From IMG/VR virus record IMGVR_UViG_3300017757_000071, positions 1-30,993 of that record: a DNA stretch of 30,993 nucleotides. The stretch is one strand, 5' to 3'. Made by a program: the position numbers and the translations under genes. This document shows, piece after piece, positions 4,820 through 30,993 of the stretch. The notes beneath the pieces are model-generated. The model made no database searches. It worked only from the letters and a program-made list of their open reading frames with translations, and had not been told where the DNA came from. Source of the stretch: a virus. How positions within the stretch are numbered: the first letter of the stretch is position 1; the number at the start of each line of letters is the position of its first letter.

Positions 4820-5991
4820 GCTTCCCACCCGTTGTCCTCGTCGTCAAACGATGGCTCGACAAGAGCCGCGATTTCATCAAAGGCCCACCAGCCGTTAACG
4901 CTCATGCGGTCTTCTCCCTCGCGGGTTCTCCAAGCCTGTCCTACGATAAGCAACTTTGTGCCTACGCCAAACGAAGGCACGTCGTCACAGTACACATCTA
5001 TTGTACCTGCTAGGGAAGATATGTCCGTGTCTCCACAGACGAGGATAGCACCGCCCTTCTCTCTAGGGTCTATGTGTATCACTTCGACCACTGTTGAGCA
5101 GTTTCTATCCCACCATCCGTCGTTACCATGGTGTTCGTCATAGTATGCTGCGAGTGAGGAAAGGTCCTTTAGCATGTTGTCTTCACCTACTAGACCAGCG
5201 ATTAGGTCAACCGGCGAACCGGAGAACATACTCGCTAGAGTGGCGTCTTCCGTGTGGACGGAGACGTTTGCATTAAGATAGCAACGTCCGTTCTTTCCAG
5301 TCTTGAGCGGTATTGTTAGTGGTGTGAAGGTGGGGAACTGTCGGTCTGCCGACGTACCGCTACCGCTCACAGTGGTTAGTACTGGGTCACTTGTTGTGCC
5401 CTGCTGGCGACCAAAGAAGAGACAGGTTCGCTCCCTCTCATCCTGTGGGCGAGGAGCGCCATACTTGAAGTTAGCATCCCCGCTTGGGAAGGTCTTGTTG
5501 TTCTTGTCCCACACCACATAGAAGTGTGTGTTGCTATCTAGTTGCATGGTGTGGTTAGGTAGGGAAGACACATCAGTCTCCGCATTACCAAAGTACTTTT
5601 CTGCTGAAAGTCTTGTGTAGGTACCGTCGTGGTTGTCCTCAAAGAGAACCACCGACCCGTTATCAACAAAGGTCTGTCTGACTTCTGCCGAGGCCGTACC
5701 CAACTGATTCTTCATCTTGTTGTATAGTATCTTACCCCACTCCTTCGGGCGCGGTACGGATATGAACATACCCTCATAGGTATCTGCACCTGCTCGGCGC
5801 ATCCTTGCATTCTCGCTTGTGATGTTCCTTCCCGCTACTCTAAGCGCGAGGATGAAACAGTCCTCGTCAGAGCGACCAGCATTCTTCCACGCGGCCCCCT
5901 GTTCAGCGAGAACCGTGTCGGCCCTCTCCTGCACCATCTCCGGCGCGACGTTCAGCGTTTTGGCTATGTTTTCTAGCATATCGTTACTCAT
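4816..5991 (-). CDS. Probable single-stranded DNA-binding protein (RPA-like)
   Basis: A 391-residue protein with no single decisive motif. Features that fit a viral single-strand binding protein are: a helical N-terminus (MLENIAKTLNVAPEMVQERADTVLAEQ), a central beta-rich domain, and a C-terminal OB-fold-like stretch (VVEVIHIDPREKGGAILVCG, then GTIDVYCDDVPSFGVGTKLLIVGQAWR). The protein ends in a very acidic tail (EPSFDDEDNGWEA), which SSBs such as gp32 and gp2.5 use to recruit partners. It lies between RFC and the chaperonin and PCNA genes. I start at the ATG at 5991 after AGAAGG; a TTG at 6000 is the alternative. Family assignment is inference from composition and context. Confidence 0.55.
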   Translation of the reverse strand: MSNDMLENIAKTLNVAPEMVQERADTVLAEQGAAWKNAGRSDEDCFILALRVAGRNITSENARMRRAGADTYEGMFISVPRPKEWGKILYNKMKNQLGTASAEVRQTFVDNGSVVLFEDNHDGTYTRLSAEKYFGNAETDVSSLPNHTMQLDSNTHFYVVWDKNNKTFPSGDANFKYGAPRPQDERERTCLFFGRQQGTTSDPVLTTVSGSGTSADRQFPTFTPLTIPLKTGKNGRCYLNANVSVHTEDATLASMFSGSPVDLIAGLVGEDNMLKDLSSLAAYYDEHHGNDGWWDRNCSTVVEVIHIDPREKGGAILVCGDTDISSLAGTIDVYCDDVPSFGVGTKLLIVGQAWRTREGEDRMSVNGWWAFDEIAALVEPSFDDEDNGWEA

Positions 5992-6042: not shown

Positions 6043-6937
6043 GCATCAGCATCCTAACGAAATTAGTCACAACGATGTTTGGTTCAACACCGCTGATTAT
6101 ATCCCGCTCGGCTGTGATAGCCGCATCCGTAATGTGGAGTTTGGTTTTGTCTGTTAGGTTACTTCTAGGTAGCGACCACTCAAAGACTGCGCGTACTGCC
6201 TTCCTAACTTCTCGGTTCTCTAGCATCTTTAGTGCTGAACCCAAGTCCTTTTCAATTAAACATACTTTGAGGAAAAGATTACAGTCTAAGTCGGTTTCGC
6301 CCAGACTGAGTAAGAACTTCTTTGCCTTGTAGGGGTCATCAAAGGACGCATAGGCTTGGAGGCAGTTGATAGCATTCCGTAGGTCGCCCTCATGCGCGTC
6401 ACATATGAGATTCAACTCGGTACTTGTCGGGAAACTATAATTCCATATCTCCACCGCCACTATCCTCTGTAAGCACTCCATCATAGACTCCTTACTTAGA
6501 GGCACGAACTCGATACTAAGACAGCGCGACTTTAGCCAAGGACTAACCTTGCTTATATCGTTGCACGTTAGTATGAAGTAACCCTGTGCGTTCTCTATGA
6601 CTCCCTTTAGCGCGGACTGCGCTTCGGGTGTTAGTTGGTCGGCTTCATCAAGCAGGATTATCTGCTTGTAGTTTCCTGCGCGTGTAAGGGGTATCAACTC
6701 CTCTTCAACAAACGCTATCCCCCTAGTCTTCTTTGAAGAAGCATTGAACGTGTATAGTTGGTAGCCTAGTGTGTTTGCTATTACGTGTGCTAGGGTAGTC
6801 TTGCCAGTACCGGGCTTCGCGCTGTGTAGTAGAAGATGTTGCATACGCTGTGGTGGCATTGTTAGATAGTCTAGTTGACTGGCACCACCCACCATCTCAT
6901 CGAAGGTGGTCGGTCGGTGCTTGTTTGCCCAAAGCAT
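6038..6937 (-). CDS. rfcS: Clamp loader, replication factor C small subunit-like
   Basis: A 299-residue AAA+ clamp loader. It opens with MLWANKHRPTTFDEMVG, the RFC box II pattern (W-x-x-K-[YH]-R-P). Walker A is KPGTGKTT (41-48), Walker B IILLDEADQLT (93-103), sensor 1 FILTCND (121-127) and the arginine-finger motif SRC at 137-139. The C-terminal part would be the collar domain. It is slightly shorter than cellular RFC small subunits (about 320-330). It should load the clamp encoded at 1127-1981. The ATG at 6937 lies 30 nt from the TATA box at 6960-6967, so the mRNA is probably leaderless. No canonical RFC large subunit is visible in the window. Confidence 0.93.
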   Translation of the reverse strand: MLWANKHRPTTFDEMVGGASQLDYLTMPPQRMQHLLLHSAKPGTGKTTLAHVIANTLGYQLYTFNASSKKTRGIAFVEEELIPLTRAGNYKQIILLDEADQLTPEAQSALKGVIENAQGYFILTCNDISKVSPWLKSRCLSIEFVPLSKESMMECLQRIVAVEIWNYSFPTSTELNLICDAHEGDLRNAINCLQAYASFDDPYKAKKFLLSLGETDLDCNLFLKVCLIEKDLGSALKMLENREVRKAVRAVFEWSLPRSNLTDKTKLHITDAAITAERDIISGVEPNIVVTNFVRMLMQ

Positions 6938-9010: not shown

Positions 9011-9626
9011 CACTAACCACCTTGTATGCTACATCTATTGGAGTTGATAGGGTGTTGAGTTTCCTCTCCACATCATCTAGTAGTTTGGGCTGGTCTGATA
9101 GAACCTCGACCAGCACACGGCTTACTTGATTGAGTTGTGCGTTTGCTAGAAGCAGTTGGCTGTCAACTCCTATTTCCTTCTTTAGTGTCCCAACTAATTT
9201 TAGGGAAGAGTTAGCCTGTGCTATCAGCCTAGTGGCATCAGCAACGAAGTCTGATGTTATACCACCCTCCATCTCCTTCTGCTCCTCCAACTCATCAAGA
9301 TAAGTCCTTATCCTTATCACTATGTCCTCGGCGGAGTCCAGTGTATTGATAGACTGAGAGCGTGCCTCTTCGATGTGCTTTGCCTCCTTTGGGTCGTAGT
9401 CAAGGTGGGCGTCCATGTGGTTCATAACGTGGCCGTCGGGCCAGTTATACTTAGCCTCAAGATAACTTGAAGAAACATTTCCGTTGTACACGTCCATTTC
9501 CATTTCTCTCATGTCTGCGTGTTCGCACATCTCACAACCACCGGAAAGAACCCAGCGTAGAACTTCCATAGCGAAGGAGTCATTTTCAGACGCGAGGCGC
9601 TGTTGTATCTCTCTCTTGGACCGCAC
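9003..9626 (-). CDS. Zinc-finger/coiled-coil protein (207 aa), small-terminase-like layout
   Basis: The N-terminal 75 residues hold CEMCEH and a following H-rich stretch (GHVMNHMDAHLDY), a probable zinc-binding site with a helix-turn-helix-like segment (SSSYLEAKYNWPDGHV) before it. Residues 85-200 are long helices (coiled-coil-like; EDIVIRIRTYLDELEEQKEM...; LLLANAQLNQVSRVLVEVL). A DNA-binding head followed by an oligomerising helical stalk is the layout of phage small terminase subunits, but the large subunit is 20 kb away, so this is only a possibility. The start is GTG at 9626, chosen because GAGGAGGAGG lies directly before it; no suitable ATG is nearby. Confidence 0.6.
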   Translation of the reverse strand: MRSKREIQQRLASENDSFAMEVLRWVLSGGCEMCEHADMREMEMDVYNGNVSSSYLEAKYNWPDGHVMNHMDAHLDYDPKEAKHIEEARSQSINTLDSAEDIVIRIRTYLDELEEQKEMEGGITSDFVADATRLIAQANSSLKLVGTLKKEIGVDSQLLLANAQLNQVSRVLVEVLSDQPKLLDDVERKLNTLSTPIDVAYKVVSDE

Positions 9627-20938: not shown

Positions 20939-21040
20939 TTAAACCCTGCGATTATTGGGAACTCCCAGCACCCCCATGATTTGTAGTTTCTTTTGTGGGA
21001 AATCTACCATAAACCCAGTGCCCCGCGAACAAAACTCCAT
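20939..21040 (-). CDS. Possible small gene (33 aa)
   Basis: A 33-codon frame starting ATGGAGTTTTG, ending NNRRV. It is the first start codon after the TATA-like TTAAGTAC at 21057-21064, which itself has an ACGCTTG element 25 bp upstream, but the TATA-ATG distance is only about 24 nt. The product has no recognisable features (one Cys, mixed composition). It could be real or merely a leader. Confidence 0.35.
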   Translation of the reverse strand: MEFCSRGTGFMVDFPQKKLQIMGVLGVPNNRRV

Positions 21041-21056
21041 ACCGGACAAATATCTA

Positions 21057-21091
21057 GTACTTAAAGTTTTGGAAAATGATACGCAAGCGTC
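21057..21091 (-). promoter_or_regulatory. Class 2 promoter, first of the minus-strand block
   Basis: Minus strand GACGCTTGCG (within 21077-21091) and TTAAGTAC (21057-21064), spacing 25 bp. It would drive the leftward unit starting at the divergent region. Confidence 0.55.
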
Positions 21092-21430
21092 ATTTTGTAG
21101 TTTTGTTATTTCACCTAGTGTGCCTCTCACACTAGGTGCTTTTTTCACACCCAGTGTAACCACCTACACTTAGTGTAGTTTTTGCACCGAAATGTTTTGT
21201 AGTTATTTAGTGCGTTTTTTGCACCGAAATGTTTTGTAGTTTTTTGGATTTTGTTTTGTGGTAAATGTTTTGTAGTTCGCCCTCAGTACGGGCCAAGCCA
21301 AAACTCCAAAACGTTTTGTAGTTCTGAAAGTCCCGCGCCCATACTAGAAGAGATGGACGCTTATAGACTTATCTATGGCCGAAAGCCTTAAGTACTTGGG
21401 GCCTGTCGCAGGGTCAAGGAGAAAGATAAA

Positions 21431-21706
21431 ATGAGGATGAATGTAACCAGTCACGACTTCGTGCGTGCGTTTGATGAATACAACAGAGAAGACAACTTCT
21501 CAAGGGCGGGCAGATATGCCCTCTTTGAGTGGTTGGAAGAGATAGACCCAGACTTTGAGTTGGACGTGATAGGAATATGCTGTCAGTTCACCGAGTGGCT
21601 GAACCTTGAAGAGTACCGCGAGCAAATGGACGCTGACGTGGAGGACTACCCCGACGATATGGTCGTTTACGGCTATGACGACGAAAGGTTCATAACCATG
21701 GAGTGA
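21431..21706 (+). CDS. Hypothetical acidic protein (91 aa)
   Basis: First gene of the plus-strand block. Very acidic, helical (HDFVRAFDEYNRED; FEWLEEIDPDFELDVIGICCQFTEWLNLEEYREQMDADVEDYPDD), no recognised domain; small acidic early phage proteins often inhibit host enzymes or mimic DNA, which is only a suggestion here. Start ATG has AAGGAG upstream; the TATA box is 44 nt away, so this mRNA has a leader, unlike most of the genes that follow. Confidence 0.7.
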   Translation: MRMNVTSHDFVRAFDEYNREDNFSRAGRYALFEWLEEIDPDFELDVIGICCQFTEWLNLEEYREQMDADVEDYPDDMVVYGYDDERFITME

Positions 21707-22058
21707 GTCGGACGGTATAAGACGCACCACCTAAGTGCGATATAAGACCGGGGCTTTCCGGGGTGCTTGTCATGAGGCACCCCCTAAGCGCGATGTAAGC
21801 GCCCCGGCTGTCCGTGGTGCCTCCGAGGCGGCCCCTATGCATGGGGGCGTAAGCCCTCGGAGTTTTGTAGTTTTTGGATTCCGCCATATTTTGTAGTTTT
21901 GATAAGGTGTGGCCCGCAGGGTATAACTACAAAATGTTTTGTAGTTCTCGGCGTCCCGCCGACTCAATCATCCTCCACGTATCACAGTAGGTACTTAATG
22001 GTTTCGCCCTGCGGGAGCCGACCGGCAGGTTCATATACCCAACCCCCCTACGGTGTAC
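21707..22058 (+). promoter_or_regulatory. Gap with tandem stem-loops, operator dyad and promoter of the 49-aa gene
   Basis: After the tandem stem-loops come two single sites (about 21864 and 21890) and the dyad at 21925-21946. Then GTACTTAATGG (about 21993) and the TATA box TTCATATA (22030-22037), 29 nt before the ATG at 22059. Confidence 0.65.
21724..21820 (+). repeat. Two tandem stem-loop units in the 3' region of the 91-aa gene
   Basis: Two diverged copies of a 43-44 bp unit (21724-21766 and 21777-21820), each beginning GCACC and ending GGTGC, with CCTAAGTGCGATATAAG / CCTAAGCGCGATGTAAG conserved in the middle. The outer arms pair in both. Changes between the copies keep much of the pairing. 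May be a stabilising or processed RNA. Confidence 0.5.
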
Positions 22059-22208
22059 ATGGACGAAGCCCAAGTCGCTTTCCTAAAGGAGGCCCTACCC
22101 GTAACCTGCATCGTGTGTATGCTCGACTGCGAGACAGTCAGGCACACGGATACCCGTGTGTGCCGGTACTGCGCTGCGAGAGCAGCCCGTAAGGCGGTGG
22201 GCCTATGA
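22059..22208 (+). CDS. Small zinc-finger protein (49 aa)
   Basis: MDEAQVAFLKEALPVTCIVC, then ...CETVRHTDTRVCRYCAARAARKAV. CxxC at 17-20 and CxxC at 36-39 could bind one zinc ion. The ATG lies 29 nt after the T of TTCATATA, so the mRNA is probably leaderless. No family recognised. Confidence 0.65.
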   Translation: MDEAQVAFLKEALPVTCIVCMLDCETVRHTDTRVCRYCAARAARKAVGL

Positions 22209-22232
22209 GCGGGTAGGCTTTTCCCTATAAAG

Positions 22233-22401
22233 GTTTTGGATTCTGATATATTTTGTAGTTTTGATATACCCCGGCCCGCAGGGACTACAAAATGTTTTGT
22301 AGTTACTTAGTGTAGTTTCCGCACCGCTCCCCGCAGTCCTAATCATACTCAACGTAAGGCAGTAGGTACTTAATGGTTTCGTCCTCCGGAAGGTTCATAT
22401 A
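22233..22401 (+). promoter_or_regulatory. Operator dyad and promoter of the 69-aa gene
   Basis: Single site (about 22251), dyad at 22284-22304, an extra TTAGTGTAGTT (about 22307), GTACTTAATGG (about 22366) and TATA TTCATATA (22394-22401), 29 nt before the ATG. The whole region is a diverged copy of the one upstream of the 49-aa gene. Confidence 0.65.
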
Positions 22402-22422
22402 CCCAACTGCACTCGCAGTATC

Positions 22423-22632
22423 ATGGCGAAGTTTAGCCGACAGCACTATGAAATGATAGCCGAATGCCTACGTGAGAACGTCCGAAAGGACGGGGCCACG
22501 ATAGATGAAGAGATGGTCTTCTTCGACGTGGTTAGGGAGTTGAGCGAGATGTTCAACGACGATAACCGCAACTTCGACCCCGCCCGCTTTTGGAAGGCGG
22601 CCTCGCCCATAGGAAGGGCAGGTAACCAGTGA
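22423..22632 (+). CDS. Hypothetical protein (69 aa)
   Basis: Unrecognised helical protein (RQHYEMIAECLRENVRKDG; EEMVFFDVVRELSEMFNDD). The ATG is 29 nt from TTCATATA. It is followed by a GC-rich hairpin. Confidence 0.65.
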   Translation: MAKFSRQHYEMIAECLRENVRKDGATIDEEMVFFDVVRELSEMFNDDNRNFDPARFWKAASPIGRAGNQ

Positions 22633-22646
22633 TAGGAGGACAGAAC

Positions 22647-22674
22647 GGGGCGGGGGGTCGTACCCCCGTCCCCC
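22647..22674 (+). terminator. GC-rich hairpin after the 69-aa gene
   Basis: GGGGCGGGGG and CCCCCGTCCCC can pair around a short loop, just after the stop codon. No U run follows, so its role as terminator is inferred. Confidence 0.5.
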
Positions 22675-22680
22675 TATAAA

Positions 22681-22819
22681 GGTTTGGATTCCGGCGCGTT
22701 TTGTAGTTTTGATATACCCCGGCGCGCAGCGTGTCTCACTACTACAAATTGTTTTGTAGTTCTGCACCGGGGGGGGGCGAGAGAGCAACTACAAAATGTT
22801 CAACCGGAGGGTTCATATA
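22681..22819 (+). promoter_or_regulatory. Operator sites and promoter of the 119-aa gene
   Basis: Single site (about 22700), dyad (22741-22761), half-site AACTACAAAA (about 22788) and TATA TTCATATA (22812-22819), 29 nt before the ATG. Confidence 0.65.
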
Positions 22820-22840
22820 CCCCCCTGCCCTCGGAGTATC

Positions 22841-23200
22841 ATGGCGGAGCAAACCCCCAAGGAGGAAACAATAATGATAGACGTAGAACCCACATGGACC
22901 GACCTAGTACCTGTCCTCTGCGACATGCTAGAGGACCCATGTTACAGCGCCGAGGCGAAGGCGCTGGCGCGTGCAGAGATAGCCAAAATGGCCGTAGTCT
23001 GTTCACGTATCCGAGCGGAGCAGAAGGAGGCAGAGCAGGACGAGAGGGAGCAGGTAGAGCGGGCAAAGCACGGATACCCGGAGGACGACCCAATCGGAGA
23101 CTGCGAGGGCGAGGCACAAATGGAGAGAGAGGCCGAGTTGGCATGGGGAGCCGAGCGAGAGAGGAACGCGGACTACTCCTCTTCGTGGGACTACTACTGA
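22841..23200 (+). CDS. Hypothetical acidic coiled-coil protein (119 aa)
   Basis: Begins MAEQTPKEETIMIDVEPTW; the middle is one long charged helix (AKALARAEIAKMAVVCSRIRAEQKEAEQDEREQVERAKHG). The end is acidic and then SSSWDYY. No recognised family. The ATG at 22841 fits the 29-nt TATA rule; an in-frame start 15 codons earlier lies inside the promoter and is rejected. Confidence 0.7.
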   Translation: MAEQTPKEETIMIDVEPTWTDLVPVLCDMLEDPCYSAEAKALARAEIAKMAVVCSRIRAEQKEAEQDEREQVERAKHGYPEDDPIGDCEGEAQMEREAELAWGAERERNADYSSSWDYY

Positions 23201-23202
23201 GC

Positions 23203-23230
23203 GGGGGGGCTTCGGCCCTCCCCTCTTTTC
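23203..23230 (+). terminator. Terminator hairpin with TTCG loop and T-rich tail
   Basis: GGGGGGC TTCG GCCCTCCCC followed by TCTTTT, directly after the stop codon of the 119-aa gene. Confidence 0.7.
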
Positions 23231-23243
23231 GACGCACCCAGTA

Positions 23244-23292
23244 ACTACAAAATGATTTGTAGTTGTGCCCCCACCACCGGAAGGTTCATATA
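23244..23292 (+). promoter_or_regulatory. Operator dyad and promoter of structured RNA 1
   Basis: Dyad at 23244-23265, then CCGGAAGG and TATA TTCATATA (23285-23292). Same geometry as the protein-coding units but without a good start codon 29 nt on. Confidence 0.65.
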
Positions 23293-23313
23293 CTCACCAC
23301 GACTCGGAGGGGT

Positions 23314-23668
23314 GTAAGTGGGCGCGGAACTGATAACTCCGCGCCATGAAGACATTGAGAAGCCATGAGTCTTATGTGAGGTATAGACCGGTAGCATACA
23401 GGCAAGGCCCCCCTAGAGGGGTCGAGTCATAAGCAGTTGGCTAGGCGGTTAGGACTCCCCTTCAATGTCTAGGCGAATAGGGAGCGAAATAACAGAAGCC
23501 GTAACACTTGCCGCACCTGCGGCCCCCGCGAGTAACTAGCGCGAAAACGGGGGGCGTTGCCCGGTTGGGCGGAATAGCACCGAGAGAGCCTGACGCTTGG
23601 CTCTACCAACGTAAGGGTGAAATCCACCGCTCATCAGCGGGTTGGGATTGGTGCGCTTGATTTTCTTT
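23314..23668 (+). ncRNA. Putative structured non-coding RNA 1
   Basis: No credible protein gene follows this promoter for about 350 nt, but the sequence folds extensively. An 8-bp hairpin GGCGCGGA (23321-23328) / TCCGCGCC (23338-23345) has loop ACTGATAAC. A 9-bp long-range helix AGACATTGA (23350-23358) pairs with TCAATGTCT (23462-23470) and encloses CTTATG/CATAAG and GGCCCC/GGGGTC. Further local hairpins are GCCGC/GCGGC near 23510, CCCCCG/CGGGGG (23523-23555), AGAGCC/GGCTCT (about 23586-23605) and CCGCT/AGCGG (about 23627-23640). The 5' end matches RNA 2 (TGTAAGTGG, then GCGCG and AACTGA). Ends are estimates: the start from the TATA box, the end from a T-rich stretch. Confidence 0.6.
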
Positions 23669-23675
23669 CGTGGTA

Positions 23676-23794
23676 AATGTTTTGTAGTTTCGGGACGTAC
23701 CGCCCCCCTCTCCGATACTACAAAATGATTTGTAGTTACGCACGCGCCACCGCACCACAGAACTACAAAACATGACCACCGAAGGGTTCATATA
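23676..23794 (+). promoter_or_regulatory. Operator sites and promoter of structured RNA 2
   Basis: Single site (about 23679), dyad 23717-23737, half-site AACTACAAAAC (23761-23771) and TATA TTCATATA (23787-23794): a full set of sites, as for the protein genes. Confidence 0.65.
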
Positions 23795-23815
23795 CCCTAC
23801 CCATGTCCCATAATA

Positions 23816-24118
23816 TGTAAGTGGGGCGCGAACTGAACACTCGCGTCCACCCCCGCAGGAACTCAGCAGTAAGACCCGTATGGCAGTTAGTCTGGTGGCC
23901 TCTCAACGATTGCCTAGAGCCGGGGGTATAAGTGATTGGGGGAGAGGCTGTTGTATGCCCACCCCACCCCTGTTAGGAGTAGACGTACACACGTCGTGGG
24001 CTAAGGTGCTTCCGAAACGAAGCGGCGTGCATGAGGGGCCTTATGGCGGAGAACCCGTCCGAGAAATCGCGTCGTCTCCAAGTGGGGCGGCGAGGCATCA
24101 CTACCTCTTACACTTTTT
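23816..24118 (+). ncRNA. Putative structured non-coding RNA 2
   Basis: Related to RNA 1 at its 5' end: TGTAAGTGG followed by an 8-bp hairpin GGGCGCGA (23824-23831) / TCGCGTCC (23841-23848) with loop ACTGAACAC. Compared with RNA 1 the stem bases differ but pairing is kept (a C-G in one is a G-U in the other), as expected for a conserved helix. More helices: GGCCTCTC (23897-23904) with GAGAGGCT (23942-23949), GACGT/ACGTC (23982-23995), GCTTC/GAAGC (24008-24023). The only reading frame (23880-24137) has no start signal. The T-rich end near 24113 is taken as the 3' limit. Similarity beyond the first 35 nt is not evident by eye. Confidence 0.6.
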
Positions 24119-24126
24119 GCATCGGA

Positions 24127-24208
24127 ATGTTTTGTAGTTTTTGGCGGGCGCGGGGCGCGGGCCGTTACTACAAATTGTTTTGTAGTTACGAACCGGCAAC
24201 TTAATAAG
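24127..24208 (+). promoter_or_regulatory. Operator sites and promoter of the 69-aa acidic gene
   Basis: Single site (about 24128), dyad 24167-24187 and TATA-like TTAATAAG (24201-24208), 30 nt before the ATG at 24231. This unit has a different TATA box from the others. Confidence 0.6.
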
Positions 24209-24230
24209 GGGGACGCCGCCTCGTATGTTT

Positions 24231-24440
24231 ATGAGCAACTATCCGACACCGGAACTAGAAGGCATACACAAGAGCATGACCGAGCATGGAGGCTCGGCGG
24301 TTGAGTTCCTACTCAACTGCACCGACTTCCTTGTTACCATCCCCCCTTCCTTCTATGCGCTAATATGCTTGGAAGTCAATGGCGAGTGCGACGAGGAGAC
24401 ATGGGACGAAGCAGTTAAGTACCTAGCCGAGACGTACTGA
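24231..24440 (+). CDS. Hypothetical acidic protein (69 aa)
   Basis: MSNYPTPELEGIHKSMTEHG, then a hydrophobic stretch (AVEFLLNCTDFLVTIPPSFYALICLEV) and an acidic tail (CDEETWDEAVKYLAETY). Not recognised. The ATG at 24231 is chosen because of the 30-nt TATA spacing; an ATG two codons earlier is possible. Confidence 0.65.
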   Translation: MSNYPTPELEGIHKSMTEHGGSAVEFLLNCTDFLVTIPPSFYALICLEVNGECDEETWDEAVKYLAETY

Positions 24441-24447
24441 GCGAGGG

Positions 24448-24475
24448 CGGGGGGCCGCGCCCCCCCGTTCTCTTT
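24448..24475 (+). terminator. Hairpin with T-rich tail
   Basis: CGGGGGGC / GCCCCCCG with a three-base loop, then TTCTCTTT, after the 69-aa acidic gene. Confidence 0.6.
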
Positions 24476-24480
24476 CGCGG

Positions 24481-24620
24481 TAAATGTTTTGTAGTTTCTT
24501 AGTTCCGCCGCGACCCACATGTTCCGCCGCGACCCACATACTACAAAATGATTTGTAGTTCCTCGCTGCCCCTCTCCCCCCCCCAGAACTACAAAACATG
24601 GTGACCGAAGGGTTCATATA
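24481..24620 (+). promoter_or_regulatory. Operator sites and promoter of the 53-aa gene
   Basis: Single site (about 24486), an exact tandem duplication of 19 bp (24502-24520, 24521-24539), dyad 24540-24560, half-site AACTACAAAAC (about 24588), then ACCGAAGGG and TATA TTCATATA (24613-24620), 29 nt before the ATG. Confidence 0.7.
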
Positions 24621-24641
24621 CTCAATACCGCTCGCATGTAC

Positions 24642-24803
24642 ATGGAGCCAAACACCTGCAAGCACTGTGAAAAGAAGACTGAGGAATGGGAGGACGCAAA
24701 CTGTTGCGACTCCTGCTACTGGGCGAGGCTAGATGCTCAGATAGCAGCAGACCCCTACGGAGGGGACGACTTCGCGTTGTACAACGCCATGGAAGCGTGG
24801 TGA
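24642..24803 (+). CDS. Small zinc-ribbon-like protein (53 aa)
   Basis: Begins MEPNTCKHCEKKTEEWEDAN and continues CCDSCYWARLDAQ, so CxxC and CCxxC pairs 16 residues apart. The second half is acidic. The zinc-ribbon N-terminus resembles adaptor-type small proteins. The ATG is 29 nt from the TATA box. Confidence 0.65.
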   Translation: MEPNTCKHCEKKTEEWEDANCCDSCYWARLDAQIAADPYGGDDFALYNAMEAW

Positions 24804-24817
24804 TACAGAAGGGGGTT

Positions 24818-24834
24818 GGGGGCCGCCCCCTTTT
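24818..24834 (+). terminator. Short hairpin with T4 tail
   Basis: GGGGG CCG CCCCC followed by TTTT, after the 53-aa gene. It also starts the next operator region. Confidence 0.55.
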
Positions 24835-24842
24835 GTACTTTT

Positions 24843-25010
24843 CGCCGGAAATGTTTTGTAGTTTCTCGGTTTGGGTTAGTTTGAGCGGAAATGTTTTGTA
24901 GTTTCGGGGTTGCGGCGGGGGGGCGATACTACAAAATGATTTGTAGTTCCGGGCTGACGCACGCGCCCCGGACTCACAACTACAAAATATCAGACCGGTG
25001 GGTTCATATA
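24843..25010 (+). promoter_or_regulatory. Operator sites and promoter of the 116-aa gene
   Basis: Two single sites (about 24853 and 24893), dyad 24928-24948, half-site AACTACAAAA (about 24978), then ACCGGTGGG and TATA TTCATATA (25003-25010), 30 nt before the ATG. Confidence 0.7.
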
Positions 25011-25032
25011 GGGGGTAGGGGTACGACGTAAC

Positions 25033-25383
25033 ATGGAGATAAGCGCGGAAGGCCGAAGAAGGCTAGACGGTAGATTGACAGACACCGAGAGGCCCATTGT
25101 TGAGGGCCTACTCACGGACGCATGGAAGAACAGGAGTGACCCAAAGCCGACTGACAGATTGGCCGTCGTCGCCCTTGAAGTACCATGGAGGACAGCGAAG
25201 GACGGAAGCAACGGGACCCTAGTGATAGGGGTAATCAAAATGGGGACACTTGCGACCGTGTTCCTACGCAACGAGTCCCAGTTGGTGAAGGCGAACCAAC
25301 TTGAGGCCAATCGTCTCAAGTGGCTGATACCCAAGAGGCCAACAGGCCCGAAAGCGAGGAAGTTCCTCAATAGGAGGCGTTAG
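25033..25383 (+). CDS. Basic hypothetical protein (116 aa)
   Basis: Unrecognised. Basic, with a beta-like middle (DRLAVVALEVPWRTAKDGSNGTLVIGVIKMGTLATVFLRN) and a lysine/arginine-rich C-terminus (KWLIPKRPTGPKARKFLNRRR), so nucleic-acid binding is possible. It is the largest protein in this series after the 119-aa one. Confidence 0.7.
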   Translation: MEISAEGRRRLDGRLTDTERPIVEGLLTDAWKNRSDPKPTDRLAVVALEVPWRTAKDGSNGTLVIGVIKMGTLATVFLRNESQLVKANQLEANRLKWLIPKRPTGPKARKFLNRRR

Positions 25384-25432
25384 AGGAGCATGGCGGCGAA
25401 AGGTATAAGAGGAAACCCCCCTATGTACCCCC

Positions 25433-25522
25433 ATGGCGGCCTGTGAGGGGTTGCGGCGGAGTGAAACGAATGCAAAAAATAAGGACCGGGTGTTTTGTAG
25501 TTATGAACAACAGGACTTATAA
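25433..25522 (+). CDS. Possible tiny gene (29 aa)
   Basis: A frame of 29 codons (MAACEGLRRSETNAKNKDRV and a tail) lies 29 nt after TATAAG at 25404. Its end overlaps the TATA box of the next gene, and one repeat copy lies inside it. Weak evidence; it may be only a leader or nothing. Confidence 0.3.
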   Translation: MAACEGLRRSETNAKNKDRVFCSYEQQDL

Positions 25523-25523
25523 G
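25490..25523 (+). promoter_or_regulatory. Single repeat site and TATA box of the 68-aa gene
   Basis: TTTTGTAGTT at about 25493 and CTTATAAG at 25516-25523. No dyad. The ATG is 56 nt further, with AGGAGG before it, so this mRNA has a leader. Confidence 0.5.
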
Positions 25524-25571
25524 CAAACACTCGCTCGCAAGTCCCGTAGGGTATAGCCTACTAGGAGGAAA

Positions 25572-25778
25572 ATGAAAATGAACGAGAAACGAGAGGAATG
25601 GAGAGAGGAATGTGAAGCCGGAATGCGCTGGCATGGAGGCCATGTATGGGAAGAAAAAGCCCTATATAGCGTCCATGTGGGCTTGGGTGACGTTATCGTC
25701 ACGGACATTGACATAGTCTGTCGGGACTGTGGCGAGCGACGAAACGTAGTAGCGACGACTCGCATAAAGCAGGACTAG
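25572..25778 (+). CDS. Small His/Cys protein (68 aa)
   Basis: Begins with a charged helix (MKMNEKREEWREECEAGMRW), then HGGHVWEEKALYSV and CRDCGERR near the C-terminus; His and Cys pairs may bind one zinc ion. Ribosome binding site AGGAGG. Confidence 0.65.
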   Translation: MKMNEKREEWREECEAGMRWHGGHVWEEKALYSVHVGLGDVIVTDIDIVCRDCGERRNVVATTRIKQD

Positions 25779-25796
25779 ACGAGGAATAGGTAAGCC

Positions 25797-25974
25797 TTTT
25801 GTAGTTCCGGGGGGAGGCGAGGCGCACACCGTTGCCCCTCCCCCCACCACTACTACAAAATGGTTTGTAGTTCCGACCCCCCGACACAAACCAACAACTA
25901 CAAAACCTATTGTAGTTACGGGGAGGCGCGGCCACCTAGAAACTACAAAACACGATGACCGAAGACTATATATA
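25797..25974 (+). promoter_or_regulatory. Operator sites and promoter of the 98-aa gene
   Basis: Single site (about 25798), two dyads (25852-25872 and 25896-25917), half-site AACTACAAAAC (about 25941), ACCGAAGA and TATA TATATATA (about 25967-25974), 30 nt before the ATG. Confidence 0.7.
25809..25845 (+). terminator. 9-bp GC hairpin
   Basis: GGGGGGAGG pairs with CCTCCCCCC across a 19-nt loop region, downstream of the 68-aa gene and between two operator sites. Confidence 0.5.
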
Positions 25975-25996
25975 GGGCACACCGACTCGGAGTAAC

Positions 25997-26293
25997 ATGG
26001 AAGGAGGAAGAATAGCCATAGTACTACCGCATCAACTTGCGATAGTGCGAGCAGAAATGAAAACAACGCTAGAAGACGACGGAGAGTTCGGAGAGGGTCA
26101 AGGCTGGGTCACATACTCAGCACGCGACTACCTGCCCTTCGGTATAACACCTTCGGTGTTTTGGGATGCACTGTCCTACCTAGCCCAAGAGGGCGAGTGC
26201 TGGATGGACGAGGACATGGTCGAGTTCGGTGACGACGACACCGAGTGGAGCAACCGCGTAACCAGCATGAGCATCTGGATAACGCGGGACTAG
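25997..26293 (+). CDS. Hypothetical acidic protein (98 aa)
   Basis: Unrecognised. Begins MEGGRIAIVLPHQLAIVRAE; a winged-helix-like middle (YSARDYLPFGITPSVFWDALSYLAQEGECWMDED) is possible: a strand, a turn and helix, then acidic beta (EFGDDDTEWSNRV). Could be a small DNA-binding protein. Confidence 0.65.
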   Translation: MEGGRIAIVLPHQLAIVRAEMKTTLEDDGEFGEGQGWVTYSARDYLPFGITPSVFWDALSYLAQEGECWMDEDMVEFGDDDTEWSNRVTSMSIWITRD

Positions 26294-26313
26294 ACGGTAT
26301 ATATACCTTTGGA

Positions 26314-26345
26314 CGGGGGGGCCTCGGCCCCTCCTCCGCTTTACT
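26314..26345 (+). terminator. GC-rich hairpin with T-rich tail
   Basis: GGGGC CTCG GCCCC with extra G/C flanks, then TTTACTTTT, after the 98-aa gene. Confidence 0.55.
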
Positions 26346-26349
26346 TTTC

Positions 26350-26561
26350 GCACTAACCTGTTTTGTAGTTCCTAGTGTAGTTTTTGCACTGGTGGGTTTT
26401 GTAGTTTTTGATATGGTGCGGCGCGGAGCGTAACTACAATATGTTTTGTAGTTCCTGCGTCCCCCCAGCAGTCGTGTGCTACAAAATGATTTGTAGTTAT
26501 CGGGAGCCGCCCCCGATAGGGTGAGAAACTACAAAACATCTGCTACCGGTGTGTTCATATA
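26350..26561 (+). promoter_or_regulatory. Operator sites and promoter of the 56-aa gene
   Basis: Two single sites (about 26361 and 26397), two dyads (26432-26453, 26478-26498), half-site AACTACAAAAC (about 26527) and TATA TTCATATA (26554-26561), 29 nt before the ATG. Confidence 0.7.
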
Positions 26562-26582
26562 CTGGTGTCCCCTCCGCTGTTC

Positions 26583-26753
26583 ATGGTGAAGACACCAGAG
26601 GAGGAGCGATATGACGTTTTTGTCTCGCTGCTCATAAAGGAAGAAGAAGAAGAAGAGAAAGAGACGGACGCGGAGGCGCGAGCGCGCTGCGAGTACCTAT
26701 GCGACCAGTACGGCATGGGGCCAAACGGGGAGTATCCTGACTTTCAGAACTAG
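26583..26753 (+). CDS. Acidic coiled protein (56 aa)
   Basis: Begins MVKTPEEERYDVFVSLLIKE, then EEEEEEKETDAEARARCEYLCDQY and a short tail. Strongly acidic helix in the middle and one CxxxC. No family recognised. The start at 26583 fits the TATA spacing; an earlier non-ATG start would be inside the promoter. Confidence 0.65.
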   Translation: MVKTPEEERYDVFVSLLIKEEEEEEKETDAEARARCEYLCDQYGMGPNGEYPDFQN

Positions 26754-26768
26754 ACGGACACACGCAAC

Positions 26769-26795
26769 CGGGGGAGGGGGGTCACTCCCTCCCTC
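26769..26795 (+). terminator. GC-rich hairpin
   Basis: GGGGAGGGG pairs with CTCCCTCCCTC in an imperfect stem, after the 56-aa gene and followed by a short T-rich stretch. Confidence 0.5.
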
Positions 26796-26807
26796 GTCCT
26801 TTCGCGG

Positions 26808-26969
26808 TAAATGTTTTGTAGTTTCTCACCACCGCGCCGCGTCGCGCACCGCGCTCCGCTACTACAAAATGATTTGTAGTTCTCACCTTAAGCCTTGCCC
26901 CGACAACTACAAAACGATAGGTATGTTGCTTCTTAGAACTACAAAACCCCTGACCGGTGGGTTCATATA
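26808..26969 (+). promoter_or_regulatory. Operator sites and promoter of the 33/46-aa gene pair
   Basis: Single site (about 26813), dyad 26861-26881, two half-sites (about 26905 and 26938), ACCGGTGGG and TATA TTCATATA (26962-26969), 29 nt before the ATG. Confidence 0.7.
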
Positions 26970-26990
26970 CTAGAGTGCTGTCCGATGTTC

Positions 26991-27092
26991 ATGGCTTGCA
27001 GACACACGCCGGAAGACGCGATAATGATGATTGCCGATGAGGACAGCGGAACCGCCCTCATCGTTTGCGGGTGCATGTGGGGGTGCGCTTGA
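26991..27092 (+). CDS. Tiny Cys protein (33 aa)
   Basis: Begins MACRHTPEDAIMMIADEDSG and ends TALIVCGCMWGCA: CxCxxxC at the end plus Cys/His near the N-terminus might bind a metal ion. Leaderless spacing to the TATA box. Its TGA overlaps the next ATG (TGATG), so it is one of the few clear two-gene units in this block. Confidence 0.6.
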   Translation: MACRHTPEDAIMMIADEDSGTALIVCGCMWGCA

Positions 27093-27232
27093 TGTCGAAC
27101 TACTACGAGGGAGGCAAGACCGGCAGCGGGGTAACGAAGTTGCTGGGGGGCGCGTGCGAGATGCAGACCGAGAAGAGGATGAGCGGGCACAACGAAGACT
27201 TAATAAGGAGACATAAGGAGCGCGTAGCATAG
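27092..27232 (+). CDS. Small basic protein (46 aa)
   Basis: Begins MSNYYEGGKTGSGVTKLLGG, continues ACEMQTEKRMSGHNED and LIRRHKERVA. Not recognised. Coupled to the 33-aa gene by a 1-nt overlap. Confidence 0.55.
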   Translation: MSNYYEGGKTGSGVTKLLGGACEMQTEKRMSGHNEDLIRRHKERVA

Positions 27233-27279
27233 GCGGAGGCGGCGCGCCACATGTTCAGCCTCTTCCCACGAAAGGCACC

Positions 27280-27483
27280 CATCGTTTTGTAGTTCCTAAG
27301 CGGTGGCCCCTTTTGTAGTTTTCGTTTTTGGGCCTTTTTTGTTTTGTAGTTTTTGAGTCCGGGCCTTTTTTGTTTTGTAGTTCCTACCCCCCGGCCCGCG
27401 CTAGATACTACAAACTGTTTTGTAGTTGTGCCCCCTCGGCCCAACTGAGTAACTACAAAACTCCTAGTCGATGGGTTCATATA
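27280..27483 (+). promoter_or_regulatory. Operator sites and promoter of the 50-aa gene
   Basis: Four single sites, of which two lie in exact 22-bp direct copies (27330-27351, 27361-27382), dyad 27407-27427, half-site AACTACAAAAC (about 27451) and TATA TTCATATA (27476-27483). Confidence 0.65.
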
Positions 27484-27519
27484 CCCATGCCCCCTCTCAG
27501 CAATTGGAGGTAACCAAGA

Positions 27520-27672
27520 ATGACCACAGTAGCATACGACGTCGTAGTGACCATGACCGTTGAAATCGACGCTGCGGACTTGATTGACGACTGCGCACGC
27601 AGTCGCATCGAGTGCAGCGTTGACGACATCGGGGATGCAGTCATCCACGACCTTGACATCAGCCCCGCTTAG
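27520..27672 (+). CDS. Small acidic protein (50 aa)
   Basis: Begins MTTVAYDVVVTMTVEIDAAD, then LIDDCARSRIECSVDDIGDA and an acidic end. Beta-alpha layout. It is the exception in this series: the ATG is 44 nt from the TATA box and has GGAGG upstream, so it probably has a leader of about 15-20 nt. Confidence 0.65.
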   Translation: MTTVAYDVVVTMTVEIDAADLIDDCARSRIECSVDDIGDAVIHDLDISPA

Positions 27673-28269
27673 TCGGGCTAGATGGTGACGGACTTACGCA
27701 AACCGGCCCCCCCGCTGGGGGGGTCGGCCCCTTTTTGGTATCAGAGGTTTTGTAGTTTTTGATAGCGCCAAGCCCGCAGGGTCTTTTGTAGTTTTTGGAT
27801 TTTGTAGTTTTTTGGACTTTTATCTTTTGTAGTTTTTTGGACTTTTATCTTTTGTAGTTTTTATGTTTTGTAGTTTTTGACGATGAATGTTTTGTGGTTC
27901 TTAGCCCCAGTTTCGGCCCGTACCCAACCCCGTGTCTGAGACGAGATGGAGGCTTATAGTCTTTCGCTAGTATTGTTCATTTCATGTTTTGTGGTTTTGA
28001 AAAACGCCGATTCTGTTGAAATTAGAGGGGGTGAGATATGGCGAAATTGGGCCTGTCCGGGTGTCTCAGAAATGAAATTAAGTTGGGAGAAACTTGGGTT
28101 TAGGGCCTTCTGAGAGGGGGTCAAAATGACCCTCTCGGCGCGGGTAGAAACTCCGTGAATCGAAAATCAACAGACATTGAAAAAACGTTGCACCGAACGG
28201 CTGTCTCGCGGGGGGGCGCCTAGTAGAGGCAAACCAAGCATTCAATACCCCCCCCTCGCTCCGGTGGGC
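27673..28269 (+). promoter_or_regulatory. Gap of about 600 bp: last repeat cluster and promoter of the 311-aa gene
   Basis: Holds the terminator above, six further repeat copies (27749-27873; a 25-bp unit occurs twice in tandem at 27806-27855), TTTTGTGGTT variants, GCTTATAG (about 27951) in a context like that at 21360, and an imperfect hairpin GAGAGG...CCTCTC at about 28112-28137. The 311-aa gene's TATA box is TTCAATAC (28241-28248), 29 nt before its ATG. Bases 27890-28230 hold no reading frame with a start signal. Confidence 0.55.
27703..27736 (+). terminator. Hairpin with T5 tail
   Basis: CCCCCCC GCT GGGGGGG, then CCCCTTTTT, after the 50-aa gene; strong intrinsic-type terminator. Confidence 0.65.
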
Positions 28270-29205
28270 ATGGACGGCGTGAATAACGACAACCTAGGAG
28301 GAGCGGCGCTAATACCAGCGTCAATGACAGCCTCCACGGAGGGCACGAATAGCACCGTGCCCGCCGTGGAGTTAGTAGGATGGTTCTCGGAGGACCTTGT
28401 GACCCTAAGCGGTGACACCTACAAGACCGTAAGCGGAGCAATCCGCCACGGTCTACACCGAGTGAGGATTCCGCTCGTTGACTGGTTCGCAGCAAACAAT
28501 ATCGTCTTCGACGGTCAAGACCCTGCATTCTTCAGCAAGGTGACAGACGGCACAAGCCGTGCCAGTGCTTACAACAAAGACCACTTCGGGAGGGTCGTGA
28601 ACATGGCCCTTACTGACTTCAACCGAGTGACATCCGTAGACCTAGTAACCGGACTAAGAGCAAAGTGCCGATGTGATGATGAGGCTTGCTTCATCCACAC
28701 ATGGGAGAAAGAGGGCGGCTGCGGCCTCCCTGCTCTAGGAAACGAGCCAATGCACATTACCGGCGACATAGCACCCGAATACCATAGGAACGCCCACTTT
28801 GGCCTCATCAAGACCACGGCCCGCAGGGTAGTTCACCAAGTCCCCATTCTAGGGGTACGATACGACAAGGAGGGCAACCCTGCTCGACTCATCGTAGTTG
28901 GCATGAGGGTGGCAACCCAGCGCTCCGGTGCTGGCAAGTCAGGCGGCTCCAAGAGTGTCGCTTTCCGATACATCACCACCGACCCATGGGGATGCGGTAA
29001 GAGCAAGTGTGACGGGACATGTGGCGGGTTCGATACCCACCTTCTGTTCACACTGGTGATGACCAAGTACGGAGTCACACAAATGGCAATCGACCCAAGG
29101 ACCAGCAACGTAGCAGATGTCATATCTCTGCTAGAGGCACAAGTAGGGAACGCCGTAGTATCGGCAACACCCTTCACGACTTTTGGGGGTGATATCCCGA
29201 ACTGA
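28270..29205 (+). CDS. Orphan Cys-containing protein (311 aa)
   Basis: Largest plus-strand gene. No family recognised. The first 35 residues are Ala/Ser/Thr-rich (MDGVNNDNLGGAALIPASMT). Residues about 40-75 (WFSEDLVTLSGDTYKTVSGAIRHGLHRVRIPL) may be a DNA-binding domain. Two Cys/His clusters follow: CRCDDEACFIHTWEKEGGCG (about 133-152) and CGKSKCDGTCGG (about 239-250). In between is a long beta-rich part (HQVPILGVRYDKEGNPARLIVVGMRVATQ). The start at 28270 is 29 nt after TTCAATAC; an in-frame ATG 31 codons earlier is inside the promoter. A regulator, a packaging protein or a virion protein are possible. Confidence 0.7.
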   Translation: MDGVNNDNLGGAALIPASMTASTEGTNSTVPAVELVGWFSEDLVTLSGDTYKTVSGAIRHGLHRVRIPLVDWFAANNIVFDGQDPAFFSKVTDGTSRASAYNKDHFGRVVNMALTDFNRVTSVDLVTGLRAKCRCDDEACFIHTWEKEGGCGLPALGNEPMHITGDIAPEYHRNAHFGLIKTTARRVVHQVPILGVRYDKEGNPARLIVVGMRVATQRSGAGKSGGSKSVAFRYITTDPWGCGKSKCDGTCGGFDTHLLFTLVMTKYGVTQMAIDPRTSNVADVISLLEAQVGNAVVSATPFTTFGGDIPN

Positions 29206-29213
29206 TTTCGGTT

Positions 29214-29248
29214 GGAGTCAGTCGGTCCACTCTGGACTGGCTGGCTCC
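29214..29248 (+). terminator. 15-bp hairpin between convergent units
   Basis: GGAGTCAGTCGGTCC (29214-29228), loop ACTCT, GGACTGGCTGGCTCC (29234-29248): all 15 pairs can form, three of them G-U when read as RNA. It follows the stop codon of the 311-aa gene. Confidence 0.7.
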
Positions 29249-29487
29249 CTCTGAAAAACATGTGTTCTAAGCCGGTCGGCGGGGGTGGATGGGGGTGTGG
29301 AAGGGTAGGGGTGAAAGACGGCCGCAGAGGGCACGCAAATAGCCTAGAATCGGAATTCTGAGTCGGATTCGGAATTCGGAAAACCGATTTTTGGTTTTTC
29401 GGTTTGGGTCGCCAAATCTCAGATTTACTCGGCAAGGCTATTAGCCTAGCAGTACGCTGAATTTACGACAATTTTTTTGAAAATTTT
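29249..29487. other. Convergent intergenic region with inverted repeats
   Basis: Between the plus-strand 311-aa gene and the minus-strand terminase unit. Contains GGAATTC twice, AAACCGA/TCGGTTT (about 29381-29405), and AATAGCC/GGCTATT arms 90 bp apart. Poly-A/T run near 29470 could be the minus-strand termination site. No gene seen. Confidence 0.4.
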
Positions 29488-29751
29488 TCAGATTTTTCTC
29501 CACTCTCGGACCATCTGTTTCATGCTGTTTTTCCAGTAATGGCGCTCGCTCATCTCCATCTCTCTCATATACATGAAAAGACGTGAGTTTTGCATGGCAG
29601 TCCACCGCGAAGGAACTTCTTTGTTCACTCTTTCGCAAATCTCATTAGTCTCTCTCCACTCATTGAAGAACCCTTTCGTCATTAGAGTACCCAAAATGTG
29701 TCTATACAGTTCTTGTCTTGGCATTGGTCCGCTTCTCTTTCTTTCGCTCAT
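29488..29751 (-). CDS. Hypothetical basic protein after terminase (87 aa)
   Basis: Highly charged, helical (RQELYRHILGTLMTKGFFNEWRETNEICERVNKEVPSRWTAMQNS; MYMREMEMSERHYWKNSMKQMVREWRKI). The N-terminal part could be a helix-turn-helix. It begins directly after the terminase stop. A packaging accessory protein is possible. An overlapping frame at 29441-29638 lacks such coupling. Confidence 0.6.
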   Translation of the reverse strand: MSERKRSGPMPRQELYRHILGTLMTKGFFNEWRETNEICERVNKEVPSRWTAMQNSRLFMYMREMEMSERHYWKNSMKQMVREWRKI

Positions 29752-30993
29752 CTAAAACCCTCTCTTGTTTATCACTTTACCGCCAACTCCGGAACGCTCT
29801 CTATTGAGGCCCCTTGTTGCGCCGCCCATCCATTCGCCCCCCTTCATAGTTTTCATAATCACAGGCATATCGGGCGTCCTGTATGTGAATTGGTCTATGG
29901 CGTGTGCTAAGGCCATAACAGTATCGTTATGCCTACCCAAATCAACAATTAAGCCGTCACGCCAAGCATGGGTCTTCATCTCATCTAGGATAACTTCAAC
30001 CATCCTACGAGTTTCATCGTTACCATAGGGGAACACTACCATTTCTCTCTCAAACCAAACCCTAAGCCTGTTGAGGAGTCCCTGCTTCAATGTTCTGTTG
30101 CTAACCTTGCTTGGGCGGTAATCCACTACCGCACCCTTCTGCTGTATCAGCGTTTCATACATTTGTTGGAAACCCACGTCCTCGGCGGCTATCGCAGCAC
30201 TATATCTCTTGGACCACTCTATCAAAACGTCTGTCTGCTTATCTGGTGGGAAGTCATTCCGCCTCCACATATTTACGAAGTGTACGAAGCCCTGCTCGTC
30301 CTGCCTAAGAACAATCAAGACCGTGAAGTCCTGCCCCAAGCCCTGTGACGGGTCAAAACCTATCACATACCTACTGTTATCCATCTTCTCTTTCTGTAAC
30401 ACTATATCCATATCGAGATTCTTGCGTACTAGATTCTGTGGATATACCGCTGAGTCATCATCAACAACCCGGCATAAGAACTCCTGTGCGAACTCCAAGT
30501 CCCCAATAGCAGCGCGCTGCTCCATAAGATACTTGATACTACGGTGTTCGGGCCATAGAGGAATGGGTTTGACCTTCTCCTCACTGGACTTCCACTCATC
30601 ATAGTTTTTCACGCTACTCCAAATACCAGTTTTCCACATGAGATTTTCAAGCATCTCACTGTGGTAAAGGTCGGTCATAGACATAGGAGTACCTACGACA
30701 TAAATAGAGGAGTTGGGGTCTAGCATGGGTGTGATTGCCTTTCTGAACCACTGTTGTAAAGTACGTGGGTTCATTTCGTCGCTGTCAACCAACACGTCAT
30801 CAAACGCTACGCACGCGGGATGCTCCCCACGAATAGCAGAACCAACAGACGTAGCCATAATCCAAGCCCCGTTAGTAAAGTGAATCTCAGTCTTGTTACC
30901 CTTCTTAGGGTCTAGGTAACGAGATAACTGGGGGTGTCGCTTAAGGTCATCCCTTATCTCTTGCAGTCTTCTAATAGCAGTATCCTTACTCGC
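29752..30993 (-). CDS. terL: Terminase large subunit (DNA packaging ATPase/nuclease), 5' part outside window
   Basis: The last 413 codons of a phage-type large terminase; the frame is open to the right edge, so the Walker A part of the ATPase is not visible. The Walker B region is ACVAFDDVLVDS (acidic pair DD), followed by the coupling motif region SIYVVGTPMS. The RuvC/RNase H-like nuclease has the three expected acidic sites: FDPSQGLGQDFTV, AAEDVGFQQ and RHNDTVMA. Just upstream of the ATG at 30858 the frame continues (IHFTNGAWIMATS), typical of the loop before Walker B, so that ATG is internal. It translocates DNA into proheads and cuts it. Confidence 0.93.
   Translation of the reverse strand, partial: ASKDTAIRRLQEIRDDLKRHPQLSRYLDPKKGNKTEIHFTNGAWIMATSVGSAIRGEHPACVAFDDVLVDSDEMNPRTLQQWFRKAITPMLDPNSSIYVVGTPMSMTDLYHSEMLENLMWKTGIWSSVKNYDEWKSSEEKVKPIPLWPEHRSIKYLMEQRAAIGDLEFAQEFLCRVVDDDSAVYPQNLVRKNLDMDIVLQKEKMDNSRYVIGFDPSQGLGQDFTVLIVLRQDEQGFVHFVNMWRRNDFPPDKQTDVLIEWSKRYSAAIAAEDVGFQQMYETLIQQKGAVVDYRPSKVSNRTLKQGLLNRLRVWFEREMVVFPYGNDETRRMVEVILDEMKTHAWRDGLIVDLGRHNDTVMALAHAIDQFTYRTPDMPVIMKTMKGGEWMGGATRGLNRERSGVGGKVINKRGF

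Follow-up and report, generated by a model that had tools for sequence, protein, structure and literature searches.

A Candidate Family of Structured Noncoding RNAs in the Small-Gene Regulon of a Tailed Virus

The window analyzed here, that is, the whole stretch of 30,993 nt, is a 31-kb piece of a tailed virus, with genes for a terminase (phrog_38), a clamp loader, and a chaperonin resembling GroEL. A related record of 69 kb, the one that holds L123, encodes a family B DNA polymerase (PolB), a chaperonin (GroEL), a portal, and a tape measure protein, and the ICTV profile of the Aoguangviridae (order Magrovirales) lists a family B polymerase, a clamp loader, and GroEL (PMC10768690). Judging from this shared gene set, the virus of the window is probably Magrovirales-like. 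A search of a phage collection returned no DNA match and no close relative of the terminase. An archaeal host apparently fits the TATA boxes found at a fixed spacing 5′ of leaderless ATG codons. The record L010 (IMGVR_UViG_3300017773_005817), which is 99.9% identical to positions 24585–30993 and stops just short of the region described below, is the same virus sampled at another site.

On the plus strand, the stretch from ~21.9 to 27.7 kb is organized in serial units, most of them consisting of one to several TACAAAAT..TTTGTAGT operators, a TATA box, and a small leaderless ORF; the same operator family recurs across 21.0–28.0 kb. Among 13 TATA-like matches examined in the window, nine have an ATG 29–31 nt downstream that opens 33–119 codons, and one of the nine has a further ATG at 24 nt. 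Exceptions to this spacing include the unit at 24201 (ATG at 24 or 30 nt) and a weak unit at 27476. Related viruses show the same unit layout with another operator sequence, CTACATAATGTTATGTAGT in L015 and GCTACAAATTTGTAGC in L123. The palindromes indeed vary among related viruses (window 21000–28000, L013, L015, L017, and L123), taking the forms TACAAAATGTTTTGTA, CTACATAATGTTATGTAG, TACTACAAATTAATTTGTAGTA, and GCTACAAATTTGTAGC, as if a repressor had co-evolved with its sites. A family of small proteins with the motif W-x-D-x-x-P ... L-x-x-M-A (W-D-P family) adjoins the RNA units described below, with at most two copies per virus: at 22841–23200 in the window, at 1384–1539 in L123, and on the reverse complement at 3503–3808 and 4363–4596 in L015 and at 5929–6138 in L013. 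A conserved hairpin with the internal motif CAUCC..GGUGUAAG, in the window GGCCCC..GGGGGCGUAAG, is found 3′ of small genes (window ~21818–21862; reverse complement of L013 ~3745–3790 and of L014 ~6297–6333), and may serve as a terminator or 3′-end element.

Two units of this series, with TATA boxes at 23285 and 23787, lie behind operator sites and are not followed by a leaderless ORF. The preliminary description had credited both with a full operator set, which is not confirmed for RNA 1: within 260 nt of the TATA box, RNA 1 has one full palindromic operator and RNA 2 has three sites. The RNA 1 unit comprises the unstranded operator AACTACAAAATGATTTGTAGTT (23243–23264), a member of the repeated family, the TATA box TTCATATA (23285–23292, plus strand), and a predicted independent structured noncoding transcript, RNA 1 (23313–23669, plus strand), with a predicted 5′ end at ~23312–23314 and a U-rich 3′ end at ~23660–23669. 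The RNA 2 unit has the unstranded operator ACTACAAAATGATTTGTAGTT (23717–23737), a TATA box at 23787–23794, and a predicted transcript, RNA 2, at 23816–24118, the latter two on the plus strand. At the predicted 5′ ends, 27 and 28 nt from the TATA boxes, where regulon mRNAs have ATG, one finds GTG and ATG, respectively, each immediately followed by TAA (23312–23317 and 23815–23820, plus strand). A start-like codon followed by a stop occurs at this place in five out of five RNA units examined: GTG-TAA and ATG-TAA in the window, GTG-TAA and ATG-TAA in the RNA 1 homologues of L015 and L123, and TTG-TAG in L015B, a unit of a second family (family B). The family B RNA of L017 has no such pair.

RNA 1 has relatives. 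Blastn comparison of viruses with related terminases gave L015 (IMGVR_UViG_3300006929_000190), which is 83.8% identical over 74 nt of the core, with a matching 5′ end and variable flanks. The 5′ module GTAAGTGG-N5-GAACTGANNACTC, with 19 fixed bases, is present in all members of the RNA 1 family; when scanned over 2.9 million viral contigs, it was found outside the window only in L015 and L123/L124, the last two being records 99–100% identical in the RNA region and thus counted as one virus. Hence, RNA 1 is carried by three distinct viruses, each time behind a TATA box in a cluster of operators and small genes. Outside the 5′ module, the bodies align far better than shuffles (z = 12 for RNA 1 with its L015 homologue, 10 with that of L123, and 4.5 between the two homologues). 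Further searches did not extend the family: the pattern GTAAGTGGNNNCGNAACTGA was too narrow, its eight viral matches looking like chance; patterns of the conserved core had only L015, L123, and L124 as real relatives, the other matches being chance-like and in unrelated contigs; one scan of the core pattern on genome contigs gave chance-like bacterial matches; and neither a full-core model (R3) nor a model of the 5′ hairpin (R1) had further members in the records searched. The terminase anchor gave 80 relatives, most of which are fragments that end short of the RNA region, a DUF932 protein and the protein at 28270–29205 gave few relatives, and the W-D-P family gave nothing new. Close relatives such as L013 lack these RNAs, which are thus dispensable in some viruses. 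An 11-mer (ACGCTTGGCTC) is common to RNA 1 and L015B, possibly by accident.

The elements of RNA 1, all on the plus strand, start with the 5′ strand of helix P1, GUAAGUG (23314–23320), which pairs with a conserved CACUURC (CACUUGC at 23505–23511 in the window). It is followed by P2 (23321–23345), a 7-bp hairpin with loop AACUGAUAACU (consensus GAACUGANNACUC). As previously said, the two RNAs share exactly the start TGTAAGTGG and a 5′ hairpin whose loop is AACTGANNACT, and the claim that the stem changes while pairing is kept also stands: around the invariant 11-nt loop AACUGANNACU, four of the seven pairs change on both sides among four copies. The long-range helix P3 joins 23351–23358 to 23462–23469, the earlier 9-bp version (23350–23358 with 23462–23470) being exact too; it reads GACAUUGA/UCAAUGUC in the window, GAUACCGA/UCGGUAUC in L015, and GACCGGAG/CUCCG(A)GUC in L123. 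Around P3, the segment CUCCC (23455–23459) can pair with GGGAG (23480–23484), two pairs changing on both sides; elsewhere the pairing is CCC/GGG-like and imperfect in L015 and L123. This helix would form a probable pseudoknot with P3, with which the A-rich linker across P3 (23470–23479) fits, as it is 10 nt long in all three viruses. A mostly unpaired core with invariant columns, CGAAAUAACAGAAGCCGUAA (23485–23504), which the 83.8% identity with L015 covers, leads to the 3′ strand of P1. The 3′ domain is closed by the terminal helix P6 (CGCACC, 23512–23517, with GGUGCG, 23650–23655), after which comes the U-rich tract; in the other two viruses, P6 is CCCCCC/GGGGGG and CCGACC/GGUCGG. Just 5′ of the second P6 strand lies P8 (CCGC-UCAUCA-GCGG, 23627–23640), a 4-bp hairpin with three pairs changed on both sides.

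Over the 23 pairs of P1–P3, all 67 cells of the three-sequence alignment (A6) are standard pairs, compared with 89.5% in shuffles, none of 500 being as high, and 33–53% in slid controls. Six pairs have both sides changed, a number reached by 2 of 500 shuffles. P1, P2, P3, and P6 are kept by compensatory or neutral change across the family; with three homologues this covariation is small-sample evidence, yet four independent helices contribute to it, and it indicates that the fold of RNA 1 is maintained while its sequence changes. The loops of P2 and P8 are complementary in each virus (UGAU/AUCA in the window, UGAAC/GUUCA in L015, and UGAAC/GUUCG in L123), with chance probabilities of 0.22 (22% of random loops), 0.019, and 0.010, respectively, which is suggestive of a loop-loop contact, weakly so in RNA 1 itself. 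P1, the probable pseudoknot, and this possible contact are additions to the preliminary description. Folding energy lends no support: the RNAs had been called highly structured, with many hairpins, and by this measure the label is not confirmed, neither being better than dinucleotide shuffles (z = −1.23 for RNA 1, +0.36 for RNA 2).

Short indels in the core alignment, one of them of 1 nt, break any frame, and RNA 1 has 7–9 stops in each of the three forward frames. Scored on regulon codon usage, ORFs of the RNA region range from −0.27 to −0.56, compared with +0.21 to +0.59 for regulon genes read in their correct frame. No homologous reading frame was found elsewhere for the positive-strand ORFs of the region. 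A minus-strand ORF has one tblastn match, to L015 (23245–23397); this match extends over both the promoter and the 5′ hairpin, which is conserved, and arises because the DNA is similar there. RNA 1 is, from this alignment, without a conserved reading frame. The preliminary description had named a lack of covariation and a conserved frame as the findings that would tell against it; for RNA 1, covariation is present and such a frame is absent. The noncoding status of RNA 2 is less clear, as it contains an 85-aa ORF (23880–24137) whose frame stays open over 100 codons; this ORF scores −0.39, and its codon pattern is not gene-like.

The two RNAs had been described as a related pair, and this is true of their first 34 nt only. 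The 5′ module of RNA 2 (23816–23849) is common with RNA 1 (54.5 and 52.4 bits with model R1, the next best match having 12.3). Beyond it, alignment to RNA 1 or to its homologues in L015 and L123 is no better than shuffles; P3, the core, and the P1 partner were not found in the RNA 2 body; and the family B model (R2) matches neither RNA 2 nor any other region of the window at E ≤ 1. Instead, the 5′ end of RNA 2 (UGUAAGUGG) is predicted to pair (8 of 9 pairs) with a different, 3′-terminal partner, CCUCUUACA (24104–24112, plus strand), just 5′ of the final U5 tract (24114–24118). A similar 5′-to-3′ closure can be drawn in several family B RNAs. RNA 2 thus reads as the 5′ hairpin module of RNA 1 on an unrelated body, and this body has no detected relative. 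The proposal of a structured RNA family under the promoters of the small proteins is supported for RNA 1, with its three divergent homologues, four compensated helices, and lack of frame and of Rfam match; RNA 2 shares the 5′ hairpin module alone, and a common fold beyond this module is not supported.

Family B was identified from L015B, a second ORF-less unit located 0.8 kb after the RNA 1 homologue of L015 (core 9049–9179, unit ~9039–9265, minus strand). Homologues are found in L017 and L033–L036, and model R2, built without the following records, retrieves L045/L046/L048 (E = 4e-25) and L050 (E = 0.004), so that the family covers L015 and four other virus lineages (L017 17343–17485, minus; L034 3962–4088, plus; L046 7314–7440, minus; L050 6823–6907, plus). 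Its units have their own TATA promoter and no ORF. The RNA has two hairpins with covarying stems and the complementary loops UUCAUCA and UGAUGAA; in L050, these are altered to CUUAUCA and UUGAUAG, with pairing kept and one base lost on each side, matching. This family supports the presence of several structured RNAs per virus cluster of this type. In the virus of L123 there is also a region of ~690 nt without a recognized gene (L162 10520–11203; L123 1–633), preceded by a TATA-like GGTTTAAG and rich in GCGAAA-type loops. It has no Rfam match and a folding z of only −0.62; from its sequence it looks like a large ornate RNA.

RNA 1 and RNA 2 match no Rfam 15 family above the gathering threshold, in agreement with the earlier failure to recognize a class, and up to E = 10 the only match is HOTTIP_2, by chance. 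In the literature searched, we found no structured noncoding RNA with covariation described for magroviruses. RNase P, SRP, and the C/D and H/ACA sRNAs are also structured RNAs with archaeal or viral representatives in Rfam, but none matches here. The loop CUGA of family A and UGAUGA of family B are reminiscent of boxes D and C, respectively; however, no guide or kink-turn arrangement could be recognized. A virus-encoded Nop-domain protein, expected for box C/D sRNAs or for TIGR-Tas, was not found, and host proteins could serve: ten related viral records, which may be fragments, contain no Nop (PF01798) or L7Ae (PF01248) gene. TIGR arrays are likewise noncoding RNAs associated with viruses of prokaryotes (PMC12045711), but no tandem array is seen here. 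GOLLD and ROOL of bacteria, phages, and prophages resemble our RNAs in being virus-associated, structured, and without ORF; the present RNAs are far shorter (~300–360 nt), lack sequence or Rfam match to them, have an apparently archaeal host and a regulon promoter, and have a loop-loop contact that is only predicted. The antisense RNAs of HFTV1 (PMC12542753) are also noncoding RNAs of an archaeal tailed virus, whereas RNA 1 is intergenic, sense, structured, and covarying.

From a family, a structure, and a unit layout that can be read directly in the sequence, we infer the following on transcription, termination, action, and role. Transcription of RNA 1 would start at a TATA promoter of its own, under operator control, and stop at the U-rich tract. 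Its 5′ end would fold back through P1, closing a domain made of the P2 hairpin, P3, and the conserved single-stranded core, with P3 probably in a pseudoknot; the P6 domain would follow, and the P8 loop may touch that of P2. The RNAs would be made alongside the regulon's small proteins and act in trans, with the invariant loop and core as the surface that meets a protein or another RNA; the resulting complexes may serve host takeover or counter-defence. Given the lack of Nop and L7Ae genes in the viral records searched, any protein that binds them more likely comes from the host or is an unrecognized small regulon protein. We favor, with a probability of about 0.6, RNA 1 as a member of a virus-encoded family of independent, trans-acting structured noncoding RNAs co-regulated with the small-protein regulon.

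The alternatives are all improbable to different degrees. Rings of pRNA are held by loop-loop contacts. An RNA for packaging or replication, pRNA-like or primer-like and acting in virion assembly or genome copying, is unlikely, although the best placed of the alternatives: RNA 1 is multi-domain and may form a loop-loop contact, as seen in the RNA-only complexes of GOLLD and ROOL, a type of complex also known for OLE (PMC12286853), but it lies in the small-gene regulon, not with the packaging genes, and relatives whose terminase is 85% identical, L013 among them, lack it. Next comes a cis-acting leader (riboswitch, attenuator, or thermometer) controlling a downstream gene, as long structured 5′ regions usually are cis elements and both RNAs lie 5′ of genes with the same orientation. 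Against it, the unit that follows each RNA brings a TATA box and operators of its own in all three viruses (the window, L015, and L123), and the RNA is therefore more than a plain leader; moreover, the downstream gene varies (the RNA 2 unit or a 71-aa ORF; a W-D-P gene; a 51-aa ORF), and the L123 RNA is closed by a U-rich tract.

We give little credit to the idea that these are small-protein mRNAs with a missed or mutated start codon, that is, decayed genes. A GTG or ATG at the start-codon position with an immediate stop is what a nonsense mutation would leave, and RNA 2 has its long open frame, but the start-stop pair recurs in four of four family A–type units of three viruses and in the unrelated L015B, codon scores are negative, the positive-strand ORFs lack homologous frames elsewhere, and for RNA 1 covariation contradicts decay. 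The least probable is a self-processing RNA, ribozyme or intron-like. The conserved unpaired core and the probable pseudoknot with P3 give a topology superficially like the P3–P7 core of group I introns; yet even at E = 10 Rfam offers no group I, group II, RNase P, or other ribozyme family as a match, the strands are separated by a linker of only 10 nt without a P8-like hairpin, and there is no flanking exon. Compared with a leader, an intron, or a packaging RNA, a trans-acting accessory RNA agrees better with the promoter and U-rich end that RNA 1 has for itself, next to neighbors with their own promoters, and likewise with the invariant loop and core, the patchy distribution, and the fast-changing helices.

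A broader view, tentative and to us well short of an even chance, is that magrovirus-like viruses deploy several unrelated virus-specific structured RNAs (the RNA 1 family, family B, RNA 2, and the ~690-nt RNA), with loop-loop contacts within or between molecules, as effectors of host takeover, which would be a functional class new for archaeal viruses. The second family hints that such RNAs may be a general, overlooked component of these small-gene clusters. Should the host, like that of Magrovirales, belong to the Poseidoniales, such RNA genes would reside in viruses of a very abundant archaeal group of the ocean surface.
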